In this document: positions 20,332-47,724 of the stretch, piece after piece
Layout: every line of letters begins with the position of its first letter
Position numbering within the stretch: position 1 is the first letter of the stretch
Assembly (NCBI GenBank): GCA_020055655.1
Contig: JAIPUR010000001.1
Coordinates: forward strand, 1 to 64,000
Length of the DNA stretch: 64,000 nucleotides
Reading direction: 5' to 3'
Source of the DNA: Methanosarcinaceae archaeon
GTDB taxonomy: Archaea; Halobacteriota; Methanosarcinia; Methanosarcinales; Methanosarcinaceae
Translations under genes and position numbers: made by a program
Notes under the pieces: generated by a model
Databases searched by the model: none
Told to the model about the DNA's origin: nothing
The model's input: only the letters and a program-made list of their open reading frames with translations

Positions 20332-21387
20332 TTAAACTTCTATTATTGACCTGGCTGCTTTTCTAATTCGATCTCCAACTGCTGCACCGACCCCAATACG
20401 ACTAAAAGAACCATCTACAATAATAAGATCAACTTTGTTCTCATCCATATGTCGCAGACCAAAAAAGATTCTGGCTGCAGCTTTCTCCGGTCTGTCTTTT
20501 TCTCCCAGGGAAAAGATTTTACTGCTTTTAAAGAATTCTATGCTCTCTTCAGTTAAAATCAAGCCAACTTTTTCATCATTCTTCCCGTGATCAAGAAGCA
20601 TCTGGGATATTTTAGCAATGACATCTTCATTCTTTCCTTCAACAAGGATGACGTTAACATCGGGTGAGTAATGGGTGTATTTCATTCCCGGGGAGCGAAC
20701 AATTTTGTCTCCATGATGTACTTTATCGTCATAAGCAACATTAACAGGTCCAATTTCGCCTTCTATATCCTGCTGACTGATTTTTCCTGGCCTCAATATA
20801 GCAGGAGGTTCTGTGGTCATATCTATAACAGTGGATTCAACACCTAACTCTACAGGTCCTCCATCTATGATTGCATCAATTCTTCCGCTAAGATCAGTGA
20901 TCACATGTCCTGCAATTGTGGGACTTGGTTTTCCAGAAAGATTTGCACTTGGAGCAGCAATTGCTTTGCCGGAGAGTTCTATAAGCTTAGTGGCAATTTT
21001 GCTGTCTGGCATCCGTAATGCTACAGTATCAAGGCCCCCGGTGGTAATATCAGGTACTATCTCTTTACGTTGCATTATCACTGTAAGAGGGCCTGGCCAG
21101 AATTTATCCATCAGAATAGAAGCTTTTTTCGGAATTATTTCAACAAGCTCATTACACTGTTCTTTTGAAAAAACATGCACTATTAGGGGATTATCTGCTG
21201 GCCTGCCCTTTGCCTGAAAAATTGATCTGACTGCACTGGAATTCAATGCATCGGCTCCAAGTCCATAGACGGTTTCAGTGGGAAAAGCAACAGTGCCACC
21301 ATTTTTAATGACACTGGCAGCTTCCTTTAGTATTTTTTCAAAATTATGCTTTCTAATATGGAATATTTGGGTTTTGTATGTAGTCAT
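20332..21387 (-). CDS. sua5: Threonylcarbamoyl-AMP synthase (Sua5/YrdC)
   Basis: Makes threonylcarbamoyl-adenylate from Thr, bicarbonate and ATP for the t6A37 tRNA modification. It has 351 residues. The YrdC domain (~1-210) has GGTVAFPTETVYGLGADA, KGRPADNPL, FWPGPLT and SANLSGKPSPT. After the linker YTHYSPD comes the Sua5 C-terminal domain (~235-351), ending AVGDRIRKAARS. Sua5 with this domain is the long form found in many archaea. Starts at ATG 21387. Confidence 0.95.
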   Translation of the reverse strand: MTTYKTQIFHIRKHNFEKILKEAASVIKNGGTVAFPTETVYGLGADALNSSAVRSIFQAKGRPADNPLIVHVFSKEQCNELVEIIPKKASILMDKFWPGPLTVIMQRKEIVPDITTGGLDTVALRMPDSKIATKLIELSGKAIAAPSANLSGKPSPTIAGHVITDLSGRIDAIIDGGPVELGVESTVIDMTTEPPAILRPGKISQQDIEGEIGPVNVAYDDKVHHGDKIVRSPGMKYTHYSPDVNVILVEGKNEDVIAKISQMLLDHGKNDEKVGLILTEESIEFFKSSKIFSLGEKDRPEKAAARIFFGLRHMDENKVDLIIVDGSFSRIGVGAAVGDRIRKAARSIIEV

Positions 21388-21597: not shown

Positions 21598-21614
21598 ACC
21601 CTTATATAATATTA
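21598..21614 (+). promoter_or_regulatory. Archaeal BRE/TATA promoter upstream of hairpin RNA
   Basis: The ACC-rich lead followed by TTATATAA (core 21602-21609) and ATATTA is a good archaeal BRE/TATA match. With the usual ~25-nt spacing, transcription would start at about 21628-21632, at the foot of the hairpin described in the next entry. No protein-coding frame follows on the plus strand. Confidence 0.6.
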
Positions 21615-21629
21615 AAACCTGTATGAAAT

Positions 21630-21700
21630 CAGTGAGCGGGCCTATTTTTTAACCCCACTCCCACACTAACCCCCACTCCCCAGCCCGCTCACAAAGATTA
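21630..21700 (+). ncRNA. Candidate small RNA: 10-bp stem with C-rich loop
   Basis: GTGAGCGGGC (21632-21641) pairs perfectly with GCCCGCTCAC (21683-21692). The 41-nt loop holds two exact copies of CCCCACTCCC (21653-21662 and 21671-21680). The element sits immediately after a TATA box and between sua5 (minus) and the end of mnhG (minus), with no coding frame. Exposed C-rich loops in regulatory RNAs often pair with G-rich ribosome binding sites, so a trans-acting sRNA is the leading idea. On the other strand the loop reads as four G-runs of 4, 5, 3 and 4 with spacers of 3, 7 and 3, a canonical G-quadruplex pattern. The 3' end is a guess; no clear U-tract follows at once. Confidence 0.5.
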
Positions 21701-21794: not shown

Positions 21795-22157
21795 CTATTC
21801 TTTTTCCTGATCTTTGTAATAGCTTTGCCCATACTCATCAACGATGGATTCCTTGCAAAGGCCTACTCCATGTCTGTGTGCGGCACGGCTCATCATGTGT
21901 GCAGCCATTGGTGCAGTTAGCATCAGGAACATTCCTACTGTAATGGCTTTAATTCCCATTGAATTAAAACCTACTTTCATGACAATTCCAAGCATAACTC
22001 CAAAAGCTCCAAGTATCCCTATCTTTGTTGTTGCATGAAGGCGGTTATACACATCAGGTAATCTTAAAAGGCCAAGCATTCCAAGGAACAAAAATATCAT
22101 CCCTCCGGCAAAGAATGAAAAGCTGAGTATATTGCGTATCATTTCATAATCGGTCAA
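21795..22157 (-). CDS. mnhG: Na+/H+ antiporter subunit MnhG (MrpG)
   Basis: Small membrane subunit of the Mrp multisubunit cation/proton antiporter. It has 120 residues and about three helices, with the family motif GLLRLPDVYNRLHATTK-GILG followed by TAPMAAHMMSRAAHRHG. The TTG at 22157 overlaps the mnhF stop (TTGA) and follows GAGGGGGTGGTC; an ATG at 22142 is an alternative. It is the last gene of mnhABCDEFG. Confidence 0.92.
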   Translation of the reverse strand: MTDYEMIRNILSFSFFAGGMIFLFLGMLGLLRLPDVYNRLHATTKIGILGAFGVMLGIVMKVGFNSMGIKAITVGMFLMLTAPMAAHMMSRAAHRHGVGLCKESIVDEYGQSYYKDQEKE

Positions 22158-47211: not shown

Positions 47212-47724
47212 TTATAAATTCTCAATTAATTCATCAAGTGCTTCAACGTGTAGATCAGGCTTAAGGTTTCCGAAAGAAAAGCTTGCATTCTGCATAAAGT
47301 GCCTTTCTATCGCTATGGTCTTCAGGTCGGTGAAATTCTTGAATCCTGAAAGAACCTGATTAAGGTAGTATTTCTTGTGACCAAAGAAAAGTATCAGGTC
47401 ATATCCACCCTTGCCATCCAATCCTGTCCAGTTCTTGTCCCCCAGGAAATGTGCAAGTGAATGGATATTGTTGTACTTTGCTTCCACACCTTTGTCAAGG
47501 AACCCTTTGATGGAGTGGCCGGTAGCTGCAACTGGAATACCCTTACTGGCGATTGCCACAGCTTTTTCAAGCATTACTTCATCTTTCATAAGCTCAGAGC
47601 CTGCTACAAGAAGAGGCCTCTTTGCTTTGGATACTAGTTTGCTAATTGTGATGGGGTTGACCGGCTTTGCGCTCTTTGGGCCCCATGTTGTGTAAACCAA
47701 TGTATTCTTTGTAGTGTCCACCAT
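47212..47724 (-). CDS. cdhB: ACDS epsilon subunit
   Basis: A 170-residue subunit tightly bound to CdhA in the CODH component, of the DHS-like/FAD-binding fold but of uncertain catalytic role. It has VNPITISKLVSKAKRPLLVAGSE, AATGHSIKGFLDKGV and LHVEALDELIENL. It is directly contiguous with cdhA (ends 47725) and 22 nt before cdhC. Confidence 0.94.
   Translation of the reverse strand: MVDTTKNTLVYTTWGPKSAKPVNPITISKLVSKAKRPLLVAGSELMKDEVMLEKAVAIASKGIPVAATGHSIKGFLDKGVEAKYNNIHSLAHFLGDKNWTGLDGKGGYDLILFFGHKKYYLNQVLSGFKNFTDLKTIAIERHFMQNASFSFGNLKPDLHVEALDELIENL

Follow-up and report, generated by a model that had tools for sequence, protein, structure and literature searches.

The intergenic region between the sua5 and mnhG genes of a Methanolobus genome holds a short GC-rich hairpin with a C-rich loop, which raises the questions of whether it is a genuine RNA, how widely it is shared and what its loop would recognize. 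In this study, we analyzed the window around it, a 64-kb stretch of DNA, together with the corresponding loci and genomes of related archaea. An earlier note, made from the letters of the window alone, had described the element as a non-coding hairpin behind a strong BRE/TATA signal and suggested that it might be a trans-acting small RNA.

The hairpin and its locus

The hairpin occupies positions 21632-21692 of the plus strand (61 nt), where covariance model R1 matched 21630-21694 with a score of 67.7 bits. Its stem is a perfect 10 bp, in which the 5' arm GTGAGCGGGC (21632-21641, plus strand) pairs with the 3' arm GCCCGCTCAC (21683-21692, plus strand), both arms being supported by sequence, fold and covariation, and it encloses a 41-nt loop at 21642-21682. 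The 5' side of the loop carries a U-run (21645-21650, plus strand), which is present in nearly all members of the family described below at varying length, and CCCCACTCCC occurs twice further on, at 21653-21662 and 21671-21680. The first of these plus-strand motifs, CCCCACUCCC (21653-21662), was found in 27/27 Methanolobus orthologues of the locus, and the second, CCCCCACUCCCC (21670-21681), adjoins the 3' stem arm and is nearly invariant family-wide. Upstream, the putative TATA box of the RNA's own promoter, TTATATAA (21602-21609, plus strand), ends 22 nt before the stem, and transcription is predicted to start at or beside the first base of the 5' arm. A sequence check of the window recovered every element of the earlier note base for base, and its positions for hairpin, loop and motifs were exact.

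Both neighbours, identified by gene calls and conserved at orthologous loci, lie on the minus strand: a sua5/TsaC-like gene at 20332-21387 and mnhG, which closes the mnh operon at its 3' end, at 21795-22157. As the element lies on the plus strand, it is neither leader nor terminator of either gene. Its intergenic location would suit a terminator or another cis-acting 3' or 5' end structure of a neighbouring gene, yet such a role is hardly conceivable given this orientation, the element's own TATA box and the fact that paralogues adjoin unrelated genes (rfcL and top6B; hppA).

The predicted fold has an energy of -23.2 kcal/mol, compared with -14.9 +/- 2.8 kcal/mol in dinucleotide shuffles (z = -2.95), and 1/200 shuffles folded as well. 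Conservation gives much stronger support than this single-sequence test. A DNA search identified orthologues of the hairpin in 26/26 other Methanolobus genomes, and nearly all of these loci have sua5, mnhG or both beside it; at two of them mnhG is not visible because the contig ends too close, and at one (L025) neither gene lies within 1.5 kb around the hairpin. Over 23 of the orthologues, the hairpin itself reached a mean pairwise identity of 96%, compared with 67% in the 40 nt upstream (the promoter stretch) and 38% in the 100 nt preceding those, and identity fell to 41% in the first 20 nt after the hairpin and to 25% in the next 100 nt, while the flanking proteins are ~55-70% identical between the orthologous loci. 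The earlier note had named an unconserved hairpin between conserved genes as an outcome that would tell against it; the reverse was observed, with stem and loop kept in relatives and the stem covarying. Since conservation stops at the hairpin edges, the pattern suggests that the RNA would be little more than the hairpin itself. A gene for a peptide or small protein was rejected, because insertions and deletions in the U-run and the C-runs shift all reading frames between orthologues.

A multi-copy family across Methanosarcinia

The hairpin of the window is a single copy from a multi-copy family that spans the class, a finding beyond what the earlier note had described. Its own genome (G000) contains three full members by model R1 search, on contigs C11, C46 and C21. 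By inspection of translations, the second (G000:C46:61937-61994) lies between rfcL and the gene before top6B, and the third (G000:C21:28752-28830) beside hppA, the H+-pyrophosphatase gene. In addition, a decayed copy at C2:67014 (L166:1500-1540) has kept the loop and the 3' arm and lost the 5' arm.

The distribution was surveyed with model R1 in 295 genomes spread over the phylum and in 238 genomes of the class Methanosarcinia. Among the former, 54 matched, and all matches listed fell within Methanosarcinia; among the latter, 225 were positive, including 150/151 good genomes. Positive groups comprise Methanosarcina, Methanolobus, ANME-2, Methanoperedens and others, with 1-15 copies per positive genome and the most in a genus that is putatively Methanoperedens. 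Within the class, model R1 was negative in genera g9 and g10, in the distant family f37 and in a few incomplete genomes; g9 and g10, from which the C-rich RNA is absent, are small-genome genera (1.3-1.8 Mb) of the same family. Exact-pattern matches in Paenarthrobacter, Nocardia and one viral contig were dismissed as chance, as they cover just 13-15 model positions, the two bacterial ones have no stem and the viral one lies inside an apparent coding region. At two loci (L061 and L056), copies with promoters are duplicated in tandem, 176-209 nt apart.

Homologues across the order share a common anatomy, namely a TATA box, a GC-rich stem beginning at once with the predicted transcript, a U-run, and UAACCCCCACUCCCC(A) beside the 3' arm. 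The motif CCCACUCCC(C) is nearly invariant in the loops and occurs in 1-3 copies: many members have only one, a second, upstream copy is frequent, and a third is found only in the Methanolobus orthologue L030, where it arose through an in-register 18-nt duplication. ACUCCC is present in every loop and CCCACTCCCC is invariant in an alignment of 38/38 diverse members, though the search itself accounts for some of this constancy, the members having been gathered by similarity to this hairpin. The stem behaves differently, and its sequence varies while its pairing is kept (GTGAGCGGG, TGCGCGGG, TGCGGGGGA, ACGAGCGGGT, GTGGGCAGGT, GAGGCATGTGG, TTGCACGGGTGG). In the 38 diverse members, 8/13 pairs had changed on both sides, and double-changed cells numbered 44, compared with 15.6 +/- 2.8 after shuffling and 2-9 in slid controls, counts that do not represent independent events because the sequences are related by descent.

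The promoter signal follows the stem as well. Among 88 distinct hairpins, likewise related by descent and so not independent, the distance from the best upstream TATA match to the stem has its peak at 27 nt and lies within 24-32 nt in 71, and the downstream control was flat. This spacing places the predicted transcription start at the first stem base. The TATA half of the BRE/TATA signal claimed earlier is conserved at a fixed distance in most members, and its BRE half proved unremarkable. With a covarying stem, a regular TATA spacing in the 88 hairpins and no reading frame kept, the proposal of a non-coding hairpin with its own promoter stands. The product would be a short non-coding RNA of ~60-75 nt, made of one GC-rich hairpin and probably transcribed from that TATA promoter.

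The same regularities bear on a role at the DNA level. A two-motif loop fits the pattern of a four-tract G-quadruplex on the minus strand (GGGG-AGT-GGGGG-TTAGTGT-GGG-AGT-GGGG), which could form together with a plus-strand i-motif, or the hairpin could act as a cruciform. We consider either very improbable, given that single-motif members have two tracts only, that the ACU between the C-tracts is invariant, and that strand relation and spacing to the TATA box are fixed.

No Rfam family was detected at the gathering threshold anywhere in the 64-kb window, and a loose cut-off around the locus returned chance matches only, nothing near threshold, in agreement with the earlier impression that this is not a named RNA family. 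The literature searched also contained no description of a family with such C-rich loops, and several members may sit unnamed in published transcript lists of M. mazei and M. psychrophilus. Taken together, we are highly confident that the hairpin represents a genuine small-RNA family, unnamed so far and class-wide.

The C-rich loop and its candidate partners

C-rich loops are an established regulatory device. In the LhrC RNAs of Listeria, C-rich UCCC loops pair with Shine-Dalgarno regions (PMC4132741), and the C-rich loop of staphylococcal RsaA and RsaE has been proposed or shown to do the same (PMC3961350, PMC4132741). The present family resembles LhrC in having several copies per genome (here 1-15) and redundant C-rich UCCC motifs, placed in loops and unpaired stretches, that recur within the RNA. 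However, LhrC is bacterial, 111-114 nt long, built of two stem-loops and present in five near-identical copies (PMC4132741), whereas the archaeal RNAs are ~61 nt long with one hairpin, their paralogues share the loop and not the stem, they have no Rfam match and their targets are candidates. Membership in LhrC was rejected on the grounds of the single 61-nt hairpin, the conservation that ends at its edges and the missing Rfam match. Similarly, RsaA and RsaE show no sequence relation to the family, and differ from it in host, size and architecture. The best reading is that the family would be mechanistically like LhrC and the staphylococcal Rsa RNAs and unrelated to them by descent.

Closer to the host, masking of ribosome binding sites has been demonstrated or proposed for three intergenic small RNAs of Methanosarcina: sRNA162 of M. 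mazei, with 191 nt and three stem-loops and found only in Methanosarcina (PMC3510493), and sRNA154 and sRNA41 of the same species (PMC5867862). Identity with sRNA162 is excluded by size and structure, the C-rich RNA being a 61-nt single hairpin of class-wide distribution. sRNA154 differs in its two loops and in its peptide, a leaderless one of 20 aa (PMC11456600). sRNA41 may be identical with a Methanosarcina member of the present family.

Known C-rich-loop devices and ribosome-binding-site masking in Methanosarcina together lead us to rank pairing in trans first. Because the stem changes its sequence with compensation, it would serve as a scaffold, and because the loop stays constant while the stem changes, the open C-rich loop with its 1-3 copies of (CC)CCCACUCCC(C) would be the working part. 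In this model the RNA would act in trans, its loop pairing with single-stranded RNA rich in G (GGGAGUGGGG-like), and the most probable outcomes would be that ribosome-binding regions are masked or that other small RNAs are engaged. As several paralogues combine this loop with different stems and promoters, one recognition sequence could be put to use under different conditions. We infer transcription itself, action in trans, pairing and an effect on translation, and find a short trans-acting sRNA of this kind somewhat favoured. The broader statement that the family works by loop pairing with RNA, RNA-RNA partners included, is at least as probable and perhaps rather more so.

For mRNA targets, the own genome was scanned by pattern searches and duplex energies were ranked over the 111 leaders of the window. 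Shine-Dalgarno positions are expected to be G-rich anyway. mnhG, which the earlier note had offered as a possible target, did not survive: its leader ranked 8th of the 111 by duplex energy, and the G-run GGGGGTGG is part of the mnhF coding end, is constrained by coding there and changes in relatives to GGAGTGG, GGGGGCG or GAGGGGGAG. The best of the 111 leaders for loop pairing was GGGGGAGTG at 47724, before the ACDS gene cdhB (47212-47724, minus strand), which is of interest since sRNA41 represses ACDS. It was rejected in turn, as its G-run is supplied by the coding end of cdhA and is not constant in relatives; in Methanosarcina, inspection of leaders revealed weak loop complementarity to cdh ribosome binding sites.

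In the own genome, sites similar to the loop complement numbered 60, compared with 49 in a backwards control, which is no clear excess. Seven of the 60 are the exact complement GGGAGTGGGG: 5 are in the sRNA genes, 1 is in the decayed copy, and the seventh precedes an ACR3-like permease gene (L172), 5 nt away from its start codon, where the predicted duplex reaches -27.4 kcal/mol, a value attained by 21/31,766 background windows. GGGAGTGGGG also forms the leader of a RibD/DHFR-like gene in two other species, and leaders of a related G-rich kind (GAGTGGG or TGGGG types) occur in most close orthologues of this gene. It lies likewise in the leader of one pirin-like gene, at the start codon. The pattern GGGRGTGGN{1,14}ATG was not enriched in most genomes searched, and its excess in some comes partly from the family 2 ncRNA described below. 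Neither the pattern searches nor the window leader scan yielded a class-wide conserved mRNA target. The loop does fit the device suggested earlier, pairing with ribosome binding sites, but a conserved mRNA partner did not emerge.

Structured or repeated non-coding elements in some relatives match the loop better, reaching 17 contiguous pairs and -38 kcal/mol, with duplex energies beyond all 31,766 background windows; they are selected, lineage-specific examples found by searching for the loop complement, and they are leads rather than proof. No such structured G-rich partner was found in the own genome. First, the Methanolobus genome G026 carries five hairpin-like elements (L305, L306, L307, L313 and L314) with a GGTGTGTG/CACACACC-type stem, clear in four, and a loop UUGGGAGUGGGGGUUGG or close variant, and it is one of these elements that forms the 17 contiguous pairs noted above. 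Promoters at these hairpins showed no consistent position.

Second, family 2 (model R2; L227-L236, L240-L269) is a multi-copy, often tandem structured ncRNA of ~120 nt with a TATA box upstream, absent from Rfam at the cut-off used. Its G-rich linker contains in some members a 19-nt exact complement, GGTTGGGGAGTGGGGTTTA. A study of M. psychrophilus reported nine conserved cold-induced sRNAs (PMC5378194), and, as a guess, family 2 might correspond to them. Third, the family 3 ncRNA (L318, L339-L344) has GGGAGTGGGGG in six relatives, and stretches from GGGAGUGG to GGUUGGGGAGUGGGGUUUA occur both in this family and in family 2 (L227-L236, L248, L268). At L318:440-560, L339-L344, L353 and L302, this conserved Methanolobus ncRNA combines its G-rich stretch with GAGTATGAG repeats and a stem of the GGAAATGCTG/CAGCATTTCC type.

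These G-rich loops and stretches, the 17-pair hairpin included, could mean that other small RNAs, rather than mRNAs, are the main pairing partners of the C-rich hairpins, which would act as sponges or antagonists. This seems quite improbable as the main role, because family 2 was found by its narrow model in just 11/27 Methanolobus genomes, the own genome not among them, and is conserved best in its 3' half, not at the G-rich site, and because the promoters of the G026 hairpins are unclear.

The main rival to loop pairing with RNA is a protein-binding role, in which the C-rich motif would be the site of a conserved Methanosarcinia RNA-binding protein that is sequestered or scaffolded. CsrB and RsmZ are sponge RNAs of this type, with a GGA motif repeated in single-stranded loops and several paralogues per genome. 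The present family shares the short repeated loop motif and the paralogues, but its motif is C-rich rather than GGA, comes in 1-3 copies and has no known cognate protein. Several observations agree with such a role: the motif shows much greater constancy, between families as well as paralogues, than pairing with drifting mRNA sites would call for, its copy number varies in register, including the duplication in L030, and no shared mRNA target was found. Against these stand the single-motif members, which are many and would make poor sponges, the structured G-rich complements in several relatives, and the lack of a candidate protein. We therefore regard protein binding as possible but doubtful, and continue to place pairing of the loop with G-rich RNA ahead of it.

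Meaning for the Methanosarcinia

A wider extension of the pairing model would be a class-wide post-transcriptional network, in which one 10-nt C-rich loop code is read by G-rich mRNA sites and, in some lineages, reciprocal G-rich-loop hairpins act as kissing antagonists, giving a two-sided sRNA-anti-sRNA system. We offer this as a speculative and rather unlikely scenario.

To our knowledge, few archaeal trans-acting sRNAs have been characterized, and these are mostly confined to one genus. The family described here occurs in nearly all the Methanosarcinia sampled, methanogens and anaerobic methane oxidisers alike. With a nearly constant C-rich loop that looks suited to binding G-rich RNA, it is a strong candidate for a gene regulator shared widely among archaea. 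If the loop is indeed the working part, one mutation in CCCACUCCC in a tractable Methanosarcina would test archaeal seed-pairing regulation for the whole class.
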